Origin: Methylococcales bacterium
GTDB taxonomy: Bacteria > Pseudomonadota > Gammaproteobacteria > Methylococcales > Methylomonadaceae
Assembly: GCA_026399095.1 (NCBI GenBank)
Contig: JAPLRP010000054.1
Span: 1 to 44,393 of the forward strand
Reading direction: 5' to 3'
Length of the DNA stretch: 44,393 nt
The notes under the pieces were generated by a model that ran no database searches, had not been told where the DNA came from, and saw only the letters and a list, made by a program, of their open reading frames with translations. The position numbers and the translations under genes were made by a program. Below are positions 17,745 through 43,379 of the stretch, piece by piece (positions within the stretch are counted from its first letter, which is position 1; every line of letters begins with the position of its first letter).

Positions 17745-17975
17745 TTACGCGTTAAGTAGTAAGAAACAGCTTTTTATGTAACAAATAACTTAATACATAG
17801 TGTTGAAGTATACTATTAGGCGTTATAAGGTTAAAGCCATTGGCGTAATAAATAATTACACCGGCTTTGTTTATAACTACTTGGAGATTAACTAAATCCT
17901 CAAAATTTGATGCTTTGTTACTACTAAAATACAGATTAAATCTAATTGACTAACAATAAAGGAAATCAATTGTAA

Positions 17976-18582
17976 GCAGAAGTTCTAATGCTGGGCGGTG
18001 GCCCGAGTGGAAATAAAGCAATGGTCACTTATGAGCTGCCGATAAGGCCGGGGTTAATGTTGATAAACAACAACGAACCAATGTAAAAAATATATTTGTA
18101 ATTAGCGATGTATTGGTTAATCCAATGCTTGTCCATAAAGCCACCCATGAAGGAAAAATTGCTGCTGAATTAATTGCAGGCATGACAGCTAGTGGCAGGC
18201 ATTAACGATTCCTTCGGTAGCTTATACCGATCCTGAAATTACGTGGATGGGCTTAACTGAAAATGAGGCCAAAATGCAAGGCATAGATTATGAAAAAGCT
18301 GCCTTTCCTTGGGCAGCAAGTGGCCGGTCTTTAGCCAACGGCCGAAAAGAAGGTGTGACCAAATTACTCTCCGATTAAAAAACGGGGCATATTTTAGGCG
18401 CGGAAATAGTCGGTAACCATGCAGGTAAATTGATTGCATAAGCGGTGTTGGCACTGGAAATCGGGGCTAATGTTGAAGACTTGGCATTAACTATTAATGC
18501 TCAACCAGCTCCCGCAGAAACGTTGCGTTTTTCAGCAGAAATGATTGAAGGAACCATTACCGACCTTTATATTAAAAAATGA
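17976..18582 (+). pseudogene. lpdA: Decayed dihydrolipoamide dehydrogenase (E3) gene
   Basis: Remnants of an E. coli-type E3 are readable in three frames. First, VLMLGGGPSG from 17982 is the FAD loop. Second, VDKQQRTNVKNIFVISD onward (18053-18205) ends in a TAA. Third, IPSVAYTDPEITWMGLTENE onward (18208-18582) includes FPWAASGRSLANG and ends with ITDLYIKK, but has in-frame TAA codons at 18376 and 18439. About 270 residues of the FAD and NAD domains are missing, including the redox cysteines. The active-site HAHPT motif has decayed to NAQPA. The order of the pieces matches a normal roughly 475-residue E3, so this is internal deletion plus drift. No intact pyruvate dehydrogenase genes adjoin it. 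Confidence 0.9.
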
Positions 18583-34893: not shown

Positions 34894-35019
34894 TTCATTT
34901 CAACATCAAAAAGACACACTAGTAAAATAGTTAATAATTTTTTCATAGAACTTGGCAAAGTGTCTGCTCAAGACTTAATATTAAAATTAAACACTGGCAA
35001 AATATACTGGATATTCATA

Positions 35020-37848
35020 ATGAGTGACCTACTTAAGCTTTTTCAAGATTCGTCTTCCTTTCAGGGTAGTAATGCCGGCTTTATAGAAAATTTATATGAG
35101 CAATTTTTAGAAGACCCTGAATCAGTTGAACTTAGCTGGCAAAAAGAGTTTAAAGCCATACAAGGCAGCGGATCCTATGAAACACCTCACGGCCCTGTTG
35201 TAGAGCGCTTTGCACAACTTGCTGTTAAATCTCCAGGTAGGCTCGCCAAATTACAAGGTTTTACCGAAGAAAGTGTAAAAAAACAGGCGGCCGTTTCCAG
35301 ACTGATAAACCATTACCGTGTTCGTGGTCATCAAATTGCCAATAGTAATCCGCTGGGCAAAACATCACCGCCACCTGCTGATATGGACCCGTCTTACTAC
35401 GGACTCTCCGAACCGGATATGGAAACCTTATTTGATACTGGCGCTATTTTTGGGGGCGTCGATCGTTTACCCTTACGTGATATTCTTGCCAATTTGTCGC
35501 AAATATACTGTGGTAGCATAGGTTCCGAGTACATGCATATTGTCGACACTCAAACCAGGCGATGGTTGATAAATCGACTAGAAAAATCCAAAGCTAAACT
35601 ACATTTTGATTCTGAGCAAAAGCAATGGCTTTTAAAACTCCTAACTGCAGCTGAAGGCATAGAAAGTCATTTACATCATCGCTTTGTAGGACAAAAACGA
35701 TTTTCTCTTGAAGGTGGTGAATCCCTCATTCCTATTCTGGATGAGCTAATTCAGGGTTCTGGCGAAAAAGGCGTTAAAGAAATTGTTATCGGTATGGCGC
35801 ATCGAGGCCGCTTGAATGTTCTGGTTAATATTCTCGGCAAAAGCCCCGTCAGTTTATTTGATGAATTTACAGGCACCTCGACTCTATCCCCCGGTGCTCG
35901 ATCGGGTGATGTAAAATATCACATGGGCTTTTCTTCTGATGTCAAAACTTCTGGCGGCCCAGTACATTTAACATTGTCCTTTAACCCATCTCATTTGGAG
36001 ATCATTAATCCTGTTGTTGAGGGTTCAGTAAAAGCACGTCAGGATAGAGCAGGAAAAGATGGAGTAGACACGGTTATTCCAGTTCTGATTCACGGAGATG
36101 CGGCATTTTCAGGGCAGGGGATCGTCATGGAAACGCTCAACATGTCGCAGACTCGTGCTTTTTATACTGGTGGAACGGTACATATCGTCATTAATAATCA
36201 AATTGGCTTTACCACCAGTAATCCAATGGACGCGCGTTCAACGCTTTACTGTACTGACGTTGCCAGCATGATTCAGGCGCCTGTATTTCATGTTAATGGC
36301 GATGATCCTGAAGCGGTTATATTTGTAACCAAGCTGGCACTTGATTATCGTATGACGTTTAATAAAGATGTTGTTATTGATCTTATTTGCTATCGACGAC
36401 TTGGCCATAATGAAGCTGACGAGCCGGCCACTACACAACCTTTAATGTATAAAAAAATCCGCAAACATAAAACGACGCGGAAACTCTATTCTCAAAAATT
36501 GGTCGCTGAAGGAATCCTGAATGAAGACCAATCTGTAAAGATGGAGCAAGATTATCAAACATTATTGGAAGCCGGTCAGGTAGTATCAAGGCCGCTATTA
36601 GAAAATCCTAATTATTCCTATGCTAATCAATGGAATAAGTTCCTGAATAAAAGCTGGGAGTCTCCGTGTAATACGGCCATATCAATGGATCACTTACGCT
36701 ATTGTAATGATCGCATGCAGCGAATACCCTCAGGCTTTGAACTACACCCCAGAGTAGCCAAAGTAATGGATAACCGTCGCAAAATGGCCGCGGGTGCCTT
36801 ACCCTTGGATTGGGGCTTCGCTGAGAATCTGGCTTATGCCAGTCTGCTACTTGAAAAGCATAATGTTCGTTTAACTGGACAAGATGTTGGACGAGGCACA
36901 TTTGTTCATCGCCATGCAGTTTTACACAGCCAAATCAATAATAAAACATATACGCCCATTAAACATTTAGATAAAGAACAAGGTAGTGCTCAAATCTTTG
37001 ACTCGTTGTTATCGGAGGCAGGTGTATTAGGTTTTGAATACGGTTACAGCACTACAATGCCAAATACGCTTGTTGTATGGGAAGCACAGTTTGGGGACTT
37101 TGCAAATGGTGCTCAAGTTGTTATTGATCAGTTTATAAGTTCAGGCGAGACCAAATGGGGACGACTTTGCGGCTTGGTTTTATTACTGCCGCATGGGTTT
37201 GAAGGGCAGGGACCAGAACATTCATCGGCAAGATTAGAACGGTATCTTCAACTGTGTGCTGAACATAATATGCAGGTTTGCAATCCAACAACACCGGCCC
37301 AAATATTTCATTTATTACGTCGCCAACTATTGCGTCCTTATAGAAAACCACTCATTGTAATGAGTCCTAAAAGTCTCTTAAGACATAAATTAGCTATATC
37401 AACCTTAGAAGATCTTACAACCGGAAAATTTCAGTCAGTAATCGGCGAGCAAGATAAGGTTAATAACAAAAAAATCACCCGATTTATTTTGTGTGCTGGT
37501 AAGGTTTATTTTGATCTTTTAGAGGCTCGTCGCGTTGATAATCTTCAGCACGTGGCCATCGCCAGACTCGAGCAACTTTATCCTTTCCCGGACAAATTGC
37601 TTAAAATAGAACTGGCAAAATACCCTAATTTGGCAGAGTTCGTCTGGTGTCAGGAAGAACCAAAAAACCAAGGCGCCTGGTATCAATCCAAACATCACTT
37701 TACTGATAGTGTGCAAGCAAATATCAGTGTAACTTATGCTGGACGTGACGCTTCTGCAGCACCTGCTGTTGGCAAGTTTCACGTTCATATAGAACAACAA
37801 AAAGCCGTCGTTCAATCTGCCTTATACGGTAACCCTTCAGGAAAATAA
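35020..37848 (+). CDS. sucA: 2-oxoglutarate dehydrogenase E1 component
   Basis: The thiamine-diphosphate-dependent E1 decarboxylates 2-oxoglutarate and transfers the succinyl group to the E2 lipoyl arm. I start at the ATG at 35020 (942 aa), because [18 protein letters not shown] matches the E1 N-terminus. A GTG at 34960 would add 20 unrelated residues. Conserved motifs include the N-terminal [26 protein letters not shown] (near 260), [16 protein letters not shown] and [12 protein letters not shown], which surround the ThDP site, and [17 protein letters not shown]. Length is close to E. coli SucA (933). The sucB ATG follows the stop by one base, indicating one operon sucA-sucB-lpd-like. Confidence 0.96.
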
Positions 37849-37849
37849 T

Positions 37850-39076
37850 ATGAGCATTGAAATACTAGTTCCCAACCTGCCCGAATCTGTTTCAGATGCA
37901 ACATTAATTAACTGGCACAAACAAGAGGGTGATTTCGTTAATAAAAATGAAAATCTGGTTGATCTTGAAACAGATAAAGTAGTACTTGAAGTAACTGCAC
38001 CCGAGTCCGGTATTCTCAGCAAAATATTAAAAGATAACGGCGCTATTGTTATAGGCGGAGAAATACTGGCTACCTTGGAATCATCAGTTGCACCTATAGT
38101 TCCGGCTAGGGAAACAACCACTCCGGTTAAAAAAACACAGGCACACAACGTAGAAGATATTCCTTTAAGTCCATCCGTTCGTCGCTTGGTTCATGAAAAT
38201 ACTTTAGACCCTTCTGGCATTACCGGCACAGGAAAAAGCGGTCGATTAACAAAAACAGATGTATTAGAACACCTTAACAAGCAAGTACAGCCAATTGATA
38301 TAAAACAAGATGTATTATCTGATCCCACTCCTGAAACAATAAAGCCTGTTGAATTAACATCAATTGCATCAAACCTGCGCCCCGAACAACGTGTTCCGAT
38401 GACACGGTTAAGAGCTAAAGTTGCAGAGCGCTTGTTACAAGCTCAACAAAACGCCGCAATGCTAACCACTTTTAACGAAGTCAATATGCAAAACGTTATT
38501 GATCTTCGTAATCAATATAAAACCAGATTCGAACAAAAGCATGGTGTAAAACTTGGCTTTATGTCCTTTTTTGTTAAAGCCTCCATTGAAGCTTTAAAAC
38601 ACTTTCCAGCGATTAATGCCTCCATTGACGGTAATGATATTATCTATCACGGTTATTATGATTTGGGTATTGCCGTAAGTACGCCCCGAGGCCTTATCGT
38701 TCCAGTTATGCATGATGCAGATCAACTTGATTTTGCAGGTATTGAAAAAAGTATCAGTAATTTTGGAGAAAAAGCGAGGGCAGGGACATTAACTTATGAG
38801 GACTTAAAAGGCGGCACCTTTACCATTACTAACGGTGGCGTATTTGGATCAATGCTCTCTACGCCGATACTAAATCCGCCTCAATGTGCTATTCTTGGTA
38901 TGCACGCAATTAAGGAACGAGCTGTTGTTGAAAATGGTCAGATTGTTATCAGGCCGATTATGTATCTTGCTCTCTCATACGATCATCGCTTGGTTGATGG
39001 GCGTGAGGCAGTGCAATTTTTAGTGACTATTAAAGAATGCTTGGAAGCTCCCGCTCATCTTCTACTCAATATTTAA
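37850..39076 (+). CDS. sucB: Dihydrolipoamide succinyltransferase (OGDH E2)
   Basis: E2 forms the core of the 2-oxoglutarate dehydrogenase complex and passes succinyl groups to CoA. The 408-residue protein has one lipoyl domain (residues 1-76) with the lipoylation lysine in ETDKVVLEV (Lys43). It has a peripheral subunit-binding domain near 101-137 ([18 protein letters not shown], then [15 protein letters not shown]), which normally holds E1 and E3, and a catalytic domain ending in [16 protein letters not shown] with His379 and Asp383. Length matches E. coli SucB (405). It lies one base after sucA and four bases before the E3-like gene. Confidence 0.96.
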
Positions 39077-39080
39077 TGCC

Positions 39081-40526
39081 ATGCAAAAAAAACAAACAAA
39101 TTTTGATGTCATTGTTATCGGTGCAGGGCCTGCAGGATTTGCCAGTGCTATTCGTTGTGCCCAACTGGGTTTAAAAACAGCCTGTATAGATAACTGGCGC
39201 AATAAAAAAAATCAGAGTCGATTGGGTGGCTCTCATTTAAATACCGGCGGCGTTGCTTCCATGACACTTCTGGAATCTGCAAAACTTTATCATCAACTCA
39301 ATCATGAGATTGCAAAACACGGTATTCATGCCGAAGCTATTTCAATAGATATCCCATTAATGATGCAACGCAAAGAAAAAGTCATCGAAGGCATCAGCCA
39401 CAAGATGTCTGACTTATTTGCCCATCATCATATAGATCATATCAATGCAAAAGCCAGATTATTAAATACCCACGAAATAGAAGTTGTATCTAACGACACC
39501 CAGATTAAATCAATATTAAATGCTAAACATATTATTTTAGCTTCTGGCTCATCTCCGACAAAATTACCATGCGCACACATCGACAATGAATTCATAATTG
39601 ATTCAATTACCGCATTAAATCTTGAGGCAGTTCCTAAAAAAATGGCTATTATTGGAGCCGGCGTTGTAGGGCTAGAATTAGCCAGTATCTGGAATAGACT
39701 CGGCGCAGAAACCATACTGTTAGAAGCCCAAGATAATTTCCTATCATTACTTGATCAACAAATCTCGGGTGAAGCTTATCGTATCTATCAACACCAAGGT
39801 CTTGATTTACGCTTGGGTGCCCGTGTTATTTCTGCAAAGAAAGGCAATAAAAAAGTCACTATTGAGTACCAAGACCAAGACGGCACGCACACTTTACGTG
39901 TCGATAAACTGATTGTTGCATGCGGTCGAAAACCCAATACTGCAGACTTGGCTGCTCCCGAGGCTAATTTATTATTGGATGATAATGGCTATGTTTATGT
40001 TGATGATAACTGCCGAACTAATTTACCCAGCGTTTATGCCATTGGTGACTTGACTCTCTTGGGTCCAATGCTGGCACATAAAGGTATTGAAGAGGGTGTG
40101 TTTGTTGCTGAACGCATTGCCGGACTCCATAACCCCATCAATTACGATAATCTTCCTTGTGTCGTCTATACCGAACCAGAAATTGCTTGGGTCGGTCAAA
40201 CCGAACAAGCGCTGCGTTCTACTGGTGAAGCCATCAAAATTGGTATCTATCCATTGACCGCTACCATACGCGCACTGGCAATGGACAAAACCGAAGGCTT
40301 GGTCAAAATTATTGCACACGCAGAGACTGATAAAATACTGGGCGTTCATATTATCGGCACACAAGCATCAGAACTTATCGCAGAGGCGGTTATAGCGATG
40401 GAGTTTTCTGCCAGTAGCGAAGATTTGGCCAGAACCATACACGCAAGACCTACTTTATCAGAATCAGTTCATGATGCCGCTCTAGTACTTAAAGATAGTG
40501 CATTACATTTGTCGACACGCCATTAA
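39081..40526 (+). CDS. Dihydrolipoamide dehydrogenase-like flavoprotein lacking the redox cysteines and catalytic His
   Basis: The 481-residue protein has the complete fold of an E3 flavoprotein: an FAD loop (VIGAGPAGFASAI, residues 12-24), an NAD loop (MAIIGAGVVGLELASIW, 188-204), the second FAD segment VYAIGDLTLLGPMLAHKG and the interface segment VVYTEPEIAWVG. The active site is wrong. Where E3 has GGTCLNVGCIPSK, this protein reads GGSHLNTGGVASM (residues 49-61), so both redox cysteines are replaced (His52, Gly57). In the C-terminal HAHPTLSE motif the catalytic His is Arg456 (HARPTLSE), while Glu461 stays. Three key residues are lost but the frame is intact and it sits four bases after sucB. 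It cannot oxidise dihydrolipoamide by the normal mechanism; an altered catalytic or purely structural role is possible. Confidence 0.93.
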   Translation: MQKKQTNFDVIVIGAGPAGFASAIRCAQLGLKTACIDNWRNKKNQSRLGGSHLNTGGVASMTLLESAKLYHQLNHEIAKHGIHAEAISIDIPLMMQRKEKVIEGISHKMSDLFAHHHIDHINAKARLLNTHEIEVVSNDTQIKSILNAKHIILASGSSPTKLPCAHIDNEFIIDSITALNLEAVPKKMAIIGAGVVGLELASIWNRLGAETILLEAQDNFLSLLDQQISGEAYRIYQHQGLDLRLGARVISAKKGNKKVTIEYQDQDGTHTLRVDKLIVACGRKPNTADLAAPEANLLLDDNGYVYVDDNCRTNLPSVYAIGDLTLLGPMLAHKGIEEGVFVAERIAGLHNPINYDNLPCVVYTEPEIAWVGQTEQALRSTGEAIKIGIYPLTATIRALAMDKTEGLVKIIAHAETDKILGVHIIGTQASELIAEAVIAMEFSASSEDLARTIHARPTLSESVHDAALVLKDSALHLSTRH

Positions 40527-41752: not shown

Positions 41753-43379
41753 TTACCACCCTATATAAGGAAATATGTTTTCTTTTCCTAACTGGTCCTG
41801 CGCATCAAGATGTTCACGGAAGTTGATTACAAACTGCATCGGGCGCGCGAGCAGTATTTGAACGCCTTTGCGTTCAAGTTCATGGCATATTTCAATCTGC
41901 GCCTGGATGCCGGTTACATCCAGTTGAGTGACAGCTTCCATTGACAGCACCAACCAGCGAGGGGGAATATCGGCACCATCAACCAGTTCGTGGATGCGTG
42001 ACTTAAAAAACTCGGCGTTAAAAAACAGCAACGGACCCCCGATACGGTAAATAATGATACCCGGAATGGTTTTTGAATCAGGTGATAATGCGATATCATT
42101 GTAGCCATCCATCTCTGGAATTACCCCCAGTATTGCATCTTTTGGCTGGTATATTTTTTGTAAAACATGGATGAGTGCCAGCGAAATAGCCAGCACCACA
42201 CCCGGTAATACGCCAATAGTTAAAACACCAATGGTAGTCAATAATGAGAGCCAAAATTCGAAACGGCTGAGTTTAAACAGTTTTTTCCAGGCGACAATAT
42301 CCAGCAATCCCCAGGCGGAAAAGATTAACACAGCGGCTAGTCCGGTTATGGGGAGCTGTCCGAGAGGTGCTGATAAAAATAGCACCACGCAGGTAGTTCC
42401 CAAGCCGGCAATCACTGAAACCATCTGTGTTTTGCCCCCGCTCGCGTTATTGATGGCGGTGCGCGAATCGGCACCCGTCACGGCGAAGCCACCGAATAGA
42501 CCTGAAGCAATATTGGCAAATCCCACCGCACGCATTTCCTGATCAGCGTTGATACTGTAGTTATTTCGAGACGCAAAGCTACGCGCTGTCAACATACCGC
42601 TGGTAAAACTCACCACCAGCAAAGCGACTGAATCCATAAAAATGGATTGTATCCCATGATAACCCAAGCCGGGTAACGAGAAAGCAGGCAGCTTGGAAGG
42701 CATGGCACCGACCAGCAAAACGCCCTCTTTTTCCATCCCGAAACCATAAGCAAGCATTCCCGCAGAAGCAAGCGCAATAAGAGCGGTCGGTGCCCGAGGT
42801 GCGAGATGATTTACAAGTACTAGTAAGGCAAGTGTCCCTGTGCCAAGTATCAAGGTCAAAAAATTAGTCTCGCCTAGATGTTCTGATAGTTCCAATAAGG
42901 AAATGACAAAATCGCGGCTCGTCACAGTTACACCAAGCATCTTACCCATTTGTCCGGCGATAATGCTTAAGGCAATACCGTTTAGATAGCCCACCAGAAC
43001 CGGAAAGCTGAAAAAATTAACGAAGAACCCCAAATGGGCATAGCCACCGATTACCATCAGCAGGCCGGTAGTGATTGTGAGCCCTGCCATGGGCTAACGG
43101 CAATAAGAGTGCCGCAATCATGGCGCAGGTCGCCGCATCCGGCCCCACCACCAGTTGTCGAGAAGAACTGAATAGCGCATACACTATCACAGGCAGCATG
43201 CTTGCATACAAGCCTACTTGGGGAGAAAATCCGGCCATATTTGCATAAGCCATGGCAGTAGGAATTTGCACGGCAATGACAGACAAACCCGCAAAAGTAT
43301 CCCGTGTCAACCAAGCTATCTTATAGTTGCGAAGATCACGTAGCAGAGGAAACCAGTTGATTAGCATTTCATACTTCAT
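41753..43379 (-). pseudogene. SulP-family anion transporter, broken by a frameshift and probable deletion
   Basis: Two minus-strand frames together make a SulP (SLC26-type) sulfate/bicarbonate transporter. The N-terminal frame from the ATG at 43379 gives the first membrane segments (TFAGLSVIAVQIPTAMAYA, then RQLVVGPDAATCAMIAAL) and runs out of family similarity after LLLPLAHG. The second frame resumes at LTITTGLLMVIGG and continues through the membrane domain (FPVLVGYLNGIALSIIAGQ) to a complete STAS domain (LDVTGIQAQIEICHELERK) ending at 41753. Relatives have roughly a dozen residues between the two parts, so a small out-of-frame deletion near 43080-43095 fits better than a simple slip. An internal ATG at 43090 could still give a truncated protein, but it would lack the first helices. 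Confidence 0.85.

Follow-up and report, generated by a model that had tools for sequence, protein, structure and literature searches.

Background

In the 2-oxoglutarate dehydrogenase (OGDH) complex, the redox disulfide of dihydrolipoamide dehydrogenase (E3) takes electrons from dihydrolipoyl-SucB, by well-established chemistry. LpdA (Rv3303c) of M. tuberculosis, an E3-like quinone reductase, combines the E3 fold and kept nucleotide sites with an incomplete cysteine pair, and SthA/UdhA, the Si-specific transhydrogenase, is an E3-like flavoprotein with a single-cysteine motif i.e. with no intact disulfide. E3BP (protein X) of mammalian pyruvate dehydrogenase (PDH) is described as a dead paralogue that was kept as a subunit of the complex (PMC6270654).

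The published evidence on OGDH in type I methanotrophs is mixed. These bacteria have long been said to be without OGDH activity although OGDH genes are present (PMC517821), the statement being made for nearly all of them, M. capsulatus included (PMC517821; PMC8527097), and an enzyme table for M. alcaliphilum 20ZR enters OGDH as 'N.D.' and PDH as 120 (PMC5802761). For M. buryatense growing on methane, 13C work cited in PMC6373157 reports that the oxidative TCA cycle does operate, and succinate accumulation by an sdh mutant of Methylomonas DH-1, described in the same source, favours such a cycle; a later methanol model of M. buryatense set the cycle as incomplete from 13C data (PMC6456754). Our literature search of open-licence PMC papers found no description of an inactive E3 in methanotrophs. 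A selected relative of E3 that is without the reactive sulfur pair and is encoded in the OGDH operon may bear on this hard-to-detect enzyme.

An E3 homologue without the redox disulfide in the sucAB operon

We analysed a stretch of 44,393 nucleotides (the window), which is contig C65 of a host genome of 2.77 Mb that is 98% complete. The window carries sucA, sucB and an E3-like gene in this order, all on the forward strand, and the three products exceed the cut-offs of the NCBIfam profiles for E1o, E2o and dihydrolipoyl dehydrogenase. The features needed here are as follows.

35020 to 37848, forward strand: sucA (E1o); the open reading frame is called from the GTG at 34960, the likely start being the ATG at 35020
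37850 to 39076, forward strand: sucB (E2o), from its NCBIfam match; lipoyl Lys43 and catalytic His379/Asp383 intact
38165 to 38281, forward strand: peripheral subunit-binding domain of SucB, about residues 106-144, placed on conserved residues with limits set by eye
39081 to 40526, forward strand: E3-like gene, an open reading frame with an ATG start, encoding a disulfide-less dihydrolipoamide dehydrogenase homologue of 481 aa
39120 to 39137, forward strand: FAD-binding GxGxxG, residues 14-19 of the E3-like protein, from the alignment of genomes of the host's family (f1)
39225 to 39263, forward strand: former redox-disulfide segment, residues 49-61, GGSHLNTGGVASM, from the f1 alignment
39654 to 39671, forward strand: NAD-binding GxGxxG, residues 192-197, from the f1 alignment
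40044 to 40049, forward strand: second FAD motif, Gly322-Asp323, present in 150/150 readable f1 genomes
40440 to 40463, forward strand: former His-Glu dyad, residues 454-461, HARPTLSE (Arg456, Glu461), from the sequence and the f1 genomes

The product resembles the E3 of P. aeruginosa (LpdG, 5u8u) and P. fluorescens (1lpf) at 46-47% identity, sharing their fold, FAD/NAD motifs, interface domain and sucAB operon, and at 454.4 bits it exceeds the cut-off of the dihydrolipoamide dehydrogenase profile TIGR01350 (408.8). Unlike the Pseudomonas enzymes, it has neither the redox disulfide nor the active-site Lys, and its catalytic His is replaced by Arg. The family model takes the gene for Lpd; the missing redox cysteine gives metabolic models of methanotrophs a reason not to treat it as a working one. 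The protein remains below the cut-offs of the profiles for NAD(P)H-quinone dehydrogenase (NF005883; 240.5 against 479) and for SthA/UdhA (NF003585; 304 against 465). It shares with LpdA/Rv3303c the E3 fold, an incomplete cysteine pair and kept nucleotide sites, but differs from that type in that its own kind is linked to sucAB and has an aromatic residue or His at position 52; with SthA/UdhA it shares the character of an E3-like flavoprotein without an intact disulfide. Like E3BP, it would be a dead paralogue serving as a subunit of a 2-oxoacid dehydrogenase complex, although E3BP derives from E2 and the window protein from E3, its place in the complex being putative.

An earlier reading of the window by a model that saw the sequence only (the sequence-only reading) had described a full-length frame 4 bases after sucB with three catalytic residues lost, and both points were confirmed. 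The interior of the frame is free of stops, sucB ends at 39076, and His52 and Gly57 occupy the two positions that align on the redox cysteines (Cys-x4-Cys) of the Pseudomonas E3s 1lpf and 5u8u. In the same alignment Arg456 falls on the catalytic His preceding PTLSE, leaving Glu461 of the His-Glu dyad. A fourth loss, beyond those listed, is that of the active-site Lys at the PSK end of the motif, which is Met61. The FAD and NAD motifs are present. With no cysteine pair there is no disulfide acceptor for electrons from dihydrolipoyl-SucB, and from the chemistry of E3 the protein is therefore predicted not to be a working E3, being unable to relay electrons to NAD+ from dihydrolipoyl-SucB. All alignment columns were searched for a cysteine pair that might stand in for the old one, and none was found fixed near the old site, so no such pair is proposed; Cys311 is present in 89/98 altered vs 10/27 canonical rows and Cys164 in 59 vs 3.

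Stepwise loss of the catalytic residues

Homologues of the linked E3 (E <= 1e-100) were found in 147 of 201 sampled f1 genomes, sucA being present in 199/201 and sucB in 198/201. Residues were counted in 151 genomes, i.e. all 147 and four members of the host genus of lower completeness. Among the 148 f1 genomes that could be read at the disulfide segment, position 52 is Tyr in 69, His in 53, Phe in 25 and Val in 1, with Cys in 0, and position 61 is Met in 68, Ile in 45, Leu in 21, Val in 13 and Phe in 1, with Lys in 0. Position 57 is Cys in 104 of the 148 (Ser 19, Gly 18, Asp 4, Asn 2, Thr 1), and in the 144 genomes readable at the dyad, position 456 is His in 105 (Arg 29, Tyr 7, Ser 2, Asn 1) and position 461 Glu in 120 (Lys 20, Asp 2, Ser 2). 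The gene is present in 34 of the 35 genomes of the host genus that were searched, the host's own included; His52 and Met61 occur together in 32/32 of those with a readable segment, and among the readable genomes Cys57 is lost in 32/32 and His456 in 30/30.

The claim that three catalytic residues were lost is true of the host but has to be modified, since the losses are stepwise, are older than the genus and include Lys61. Loss of Cys52 and Lys61 probably came first, followed on more than one occasion by loss of Cys57 and of the dyad; losses of Cys57 and His456 in the host genus and some others are read as belonging to this later stage. The E3-like genes thereby offer a natural gradation of active-site loss in E3 proteins that remain under selection. 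A separate dyad loss was seen in many genomes of genus g24 (e.g. L160, L199), where Glu461 is replaced by Lys and His456 is kept (HAHPTLAK); it reads as the mirror image of the loss in the host genus.

The nucleotide sites contrast with the catalytic one in their constancy, as the FAD glycines G14 and G16 are present in 147/147 readable f1 genomes and G19 in 144/147, and the NAD glycines G192 in 150/151 and G194 and G197 in 151/151, with residue 215 being Glu in 128 and Asp in 23. His333 is kept in nearly all readable f1 genomes.

Linkage to sucB is also widespread. In 73 of the 78 f1 loci read with flanks, sucB lies immediately upstream on the same strand, the gap between aligned ends being 5-53 bases in 67 loci and 163-404 in six. 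The five exceptions are G072, G118, G110 and G124, where no sucB lies ahead of the E3-like gene, and the second copy in G211. Co-encoding with sucB, as looked for in a subunit of the OGDH complex, is found across f1, and binding to SucB/SucA is predicted. The G211 bin holds two altered E3-like copies (L163, L164), one after sucAB and the other on a 5.4-kb contig.

Selection and new constraints

The purifying selection that had been supposed to act on the pseudo-E3 was borne out: dN/dS (Nei-Gojobori) was 0.03-0.16 in 18/18 finite f1 pairs, 19 having been tried and one being saturated. The f1 pairs gave 0.05-0.13 for sucB and 0.02-0.08 for sucA, and values were 0.03-0.05 for the canonical linked E3 of families f7 and f8 (4 pairs) and 0.05 for PDH E3 (2 pairs). 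Because the E3-like values lie near those of sucB and above those of canonical and PDH E3, constraint on the gene is strong, yet looser than for a working E3.

The 27 canonical rows share 119 invariant positions, and 78 of these hold the same residue in at least 90% of the 98 altered rows. By hand count, the lost positions make up 9/15 of the catalytic segment vs 32/104 elsewhere (Fisher p 0.04), a modest enrichment. The altered rows also have features that we interpret as new constraints, i.e. an insertion of one residue (325) adjoining the FAD Gly-Asp motif, found in f1 rows and not in f2 or f5-f8 rows, and Phe341, found in 91/98 altered rows. Together, these comparisons show the E3-like gene to be a selected E3 paralogue of the OGDH operon in which the FAD, NAD and E3-fold features stay.

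Structure model and interface residues

An AlphaFold model of the E3-like protein was built from 37 of the sequences in a set of 80 loci (that of the window, those of 10 loci of the same kind, and 26 further ones) and has a mean pLDDT of 89.6, the ten residues 451-460 reaching only 57. Among solved structures it comes closest to Pseudomonas E3 chains, with an rmsd of 1.2-1.6 A. At the interface positions of the altered E3, residue 447 is Glu in 98/98 rows, 448 is Asp in 97/98, and 451 is Arg in 86 and Lys in 4 of 98; we take positions 448 and 451 to be equivalent to human D444 and R447. Human E3 disease variants at D444 and R447 are described as binding PDHc poorly (PMC6776566). Because the interface residues are shared with the canonical rows and form part of the dimer contact as well, they are no proof of binding. 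E3 contact residues were sought in PMC9974300 and gave no match. On the partner side, Arg111, Lys129, Arg132, Lys135 and Asp137 of SucB are present in 71/71 SucB rows with a linked altered E3, and the lipoyl Lys, HxxxDG site and subunit-binding domain are intact in the rows compared. For SucA, 8 motif words were tried, of which 6 are present and differ little from row to row.

Linked E3 in other families and origin of the altered form

The linked E3 of f7 and f8 is canonical at 52, 57, 61, 456 and 461 in 14/14 genomes. Among the 67 loci of lower identity (L048-L114), both cysteines and the lysine are present in all 65 that have the segment, which is missing in L088 (an f1 fragment) and L103. 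AMO-family matches occur in 9/12 f7 and 2/2 f8 genomes at E 1e-85 to 1e-110; those in most f1 and f4 genomes are stronger, mostly beyond 1e-117. We infer that the substrate oxidised by f7 and f8 is not methane.

No linked E3 was found in f4 (0/34 sampled genomes at E <= 1e-100), although sucA is present in 34/34; in the 12 f4 sucA loci read (L284-L286, L318-L324, L326, L327) an E3 follows sucA in 0/12 and sucB is present in 11. The 54 of 201 f1 genomes without a linked E3 belong to g21 (29), g22 (16) and g30 (4), with five others, and all 49 sampled genomes of the three genera have sucA. Since the sampled genomes of g21, g22, g30 and f4 have sucA and are without the E3-like gene, the gene is dispensable. 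A linked E3 was found in 2/10 genomes of f6, 1/3 of f2 and 1/1 of f5. Among the genomes sampled from the order, the linked E3 outside f7 and f8 is altered or absent. At two g22 loci (L209, L210) sucA has no adjoining sucB and no linked E3 was found; in the g22 genomes G069 and G143, sucB is on another contig.

An E3 tree calculated without the catalytic columns united the 98 altered rows in one clade (99*) next to f7+f8, and a maximum-likelihood tree of 41 rows, from which f6 and g27 had been left out, also recovered the altered clade (100*). In the sucB tree f7+f8 fall outside the altered rows (91, branch not starred). The sucA tree joins f2+f5 with f7+f8 (97*), a grouping that an AU test did not reject for E3 (p 0.0865). 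The f6 sequences have Ser52, keep Lys61 and lie on a long branch. The E3 tree is most simply read as one early loss, but the losses may instead have been parallel, or the sucB-E3 pair may have been transferred to f2/f5. In the f2 and f5 loci (L136, L128; L309-L312) sucB forms a pair with the E3-like gene, and sucA, as far as the loci were read, has none after it, an arrangement that may reflect a separate movement of the sucB-E3 pair.

The host and its other E3

The host had been guessed to be a type I methanotroph, and this agrees with what we found. Because its genome carries a pmoA-family gene (on C12) and its genus appears to include Methylobacter sp. KS41, the host is most likely a type I methanotroph. 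One intact canonical E3 was found in the host, the PDH-linked E3 on C92, with GGVCLNVGCIPSK and HPHPTLAE. A PDH-type E3 is present in 191/201 sampled f1 genomes (E <= 1e-120), and the motif of the PDH-linked E3 was intact in 22/22 genomes read, two of them f4. If OGDH works, the PDH-linked E3 presumably serves it, being the one evident candidate for reoxidation of SucB in the host. The host has two further Pyr_redox_dim matches, one to a frame of 726 codons on C10 and one to a decayed remnant that lies in the window itself.

That 2-oxoglutarate:ferredoxin oxidoreductase provides a bypass was rejected as a general explanation, as TIGR03710 exceeded its cut-off in only 5/201 f1 genomes, all five in genus g20, and did not do so in the host. 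The g20 motif is GGTYINAGCVSSM, with HAHPTISE, in 5/5 genomes. The 20ZR paper lists 2-oxoglutarate:ferredoxin oxidoreductase for M. alcaliphilum 20ZR (PMC5802761), and because the enzyme occurs in both, g20 may be the genus of this strain.

Role of the E3-like protein

From the sequence evidence we infer a repurposed FAD/NADH-binding subunit associated with SucB, probably a regulatory one. The roles put forward in the sequence-only reading (a structural or regulatory E3 subunit, an FAD-dependent enzyme with a new substrate, a brake on OGDH) are likewise candidates. The reading that we favour, tentatively and short of calling it probable, is that OGDH is limited because this subunit takes a share of the complex's E3 sites. 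The canonical E3 of the PDH operon would reoxidise SucB; the E3-like protein, a dimer that binds FAD and NADH and is co-produced with SucB, would occupy E3 sites on the OGDH complex; and the share of sites so held, possibly tuned by NADH, would set OGDH capacity. A limiter on the 2-oxoglutarate branch would in this way be built into bacteria that use the cycle mainly for biosynthesis. The proposal is supported by the operon linkage, the kept interface residues and the kept SucB domain, and also by the intact PDH E3 and the 'N.D.' entry for OGDH in M. alcaliphilum 20ZR. It is opposed by the absence of the gene in several lineages, by the four unlinked cases, by a dN/dS looser than that of canonical linked E3 and PDH E3, and by the working cycle reported for M. 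buryatense on methane; moreover, the strict conservation of the NAD site is more than a mere plug would need, and for the human complex it is said that E3 may be bound, and weakly, by E1 instead of E2 (PMC6776566), which tells against a site on SucB.

The strictness of the NAD and FAD sites, which are nearly invariant, would be expected of a repurposed NADH-dependent flavoprotein. Such a new NADH:acceptor enzyme is a close rival of the regulatory subunit, and we consider it possible without expecting it. Its FADH2 would directly reduce an acceptor that is not a disulfide (quinone, O2 or some other small molecule), with residues 52 (aromatic or His) and 61 (hydrophobic) reshaping the old dithiol face of the flavin, and the E3-like quinone reductase LpdA of M. 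tuberculosis is a precedent. The choice of residues is narrow and unlike drift (His/Tyr/Phe at 52 in 147/148 and a hydrophobic residue at 61 in 148/148 f1 genomes), the inserted residue 325 and Phe341 are new constraints, and Cys57, His456 and Glu461 are all kept in 73/113 readable f1 genomes outside the host genus. However, such an enzyme leaves the persistent sucAB linkage unexplained, scores well short on the quinone dehydrogenase and transhydrogenase profiles, and would have to do without Cys57 and the dyad His, which are dispensable in the host genus. Operon position, together with the full-length E3 fold and retained interface residues, also suits a noncatalytic assembly subunit on which the OGDH complex would depend for its geometry or solubility, with no limiting effect on activity i.e. 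a dead-paralogue scaffold, as E3BP is to E2. We think this decidedly unlikely, as strict conservation of the NAD site would be superfluous in a scaffold, and sucA and sucB persist without the E3-like gene in the sampled genomes of g21, g22 and g30, as does sucA in those of f4.

These absences (54/201 f1 genomes, 49 of them in three genera) could instead be the end state of slow decay, in which a redundant E3 is on its way out by deletion in several lineages; the further erosion in the host genus and g27 and a dN/dS looser than that of canonical E3 point the same way. We disfavour decay as very improbable and rejected a pseudogene, because dN/dS remains low in every finite f1 pair, the FAD/NAD motifs are kept across 151 genomes, and stops within the alignments occur only at the C-terminal residues 475 and 479, in three f1 loci. 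A sequencing, assembly or annotation artefact is refuted by the same replacements in 32/32 readable genomes of the genus, including the separately assembled Methylobacter sp. KS41.

The sequence-only reading had suggested that, in a type I methanotroph, the gene could bear directly on the OGDH puzzle. It is relevant to it but insufficient as the sole cause, the sampled f4 and g21 genomes being without a linked E3 and some strains having a working cycle according to PMC6373157. A bolder form of the limiting-subunit proposal, which we regard as unlikely, is that in methanotrophic Methylococcales the E3 of the OGDH operon was turned, at an early stage, into a subunit without the disulfide, which senses FAD/NADH and drives active E3 off the complex, that the complex is E3-starved by design, and that this, with gene loss elsewhere, is the basis of the classical absence of OGDH in type I extracts. 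If it is true, active E3 added to extracts of type I methanotrophs would restore OGDH activity, and the puzzle can now be tested with this one reagent.

Other features of the window

The decayed remnant of another E3-family gene (L004) lies at about 17970-18580 on the forward strand, its wider extent judged by eye; its Pyr_redox_dim match covers 18208-18525 and has two TAA inside. On the reverse strand, at 41753-43379, a gene that by eye is SulP-type transporter-like is present as two overlapping open reading frames in different frames (41753-43090 and 43017-43379), possibly as the result of a frameshift.
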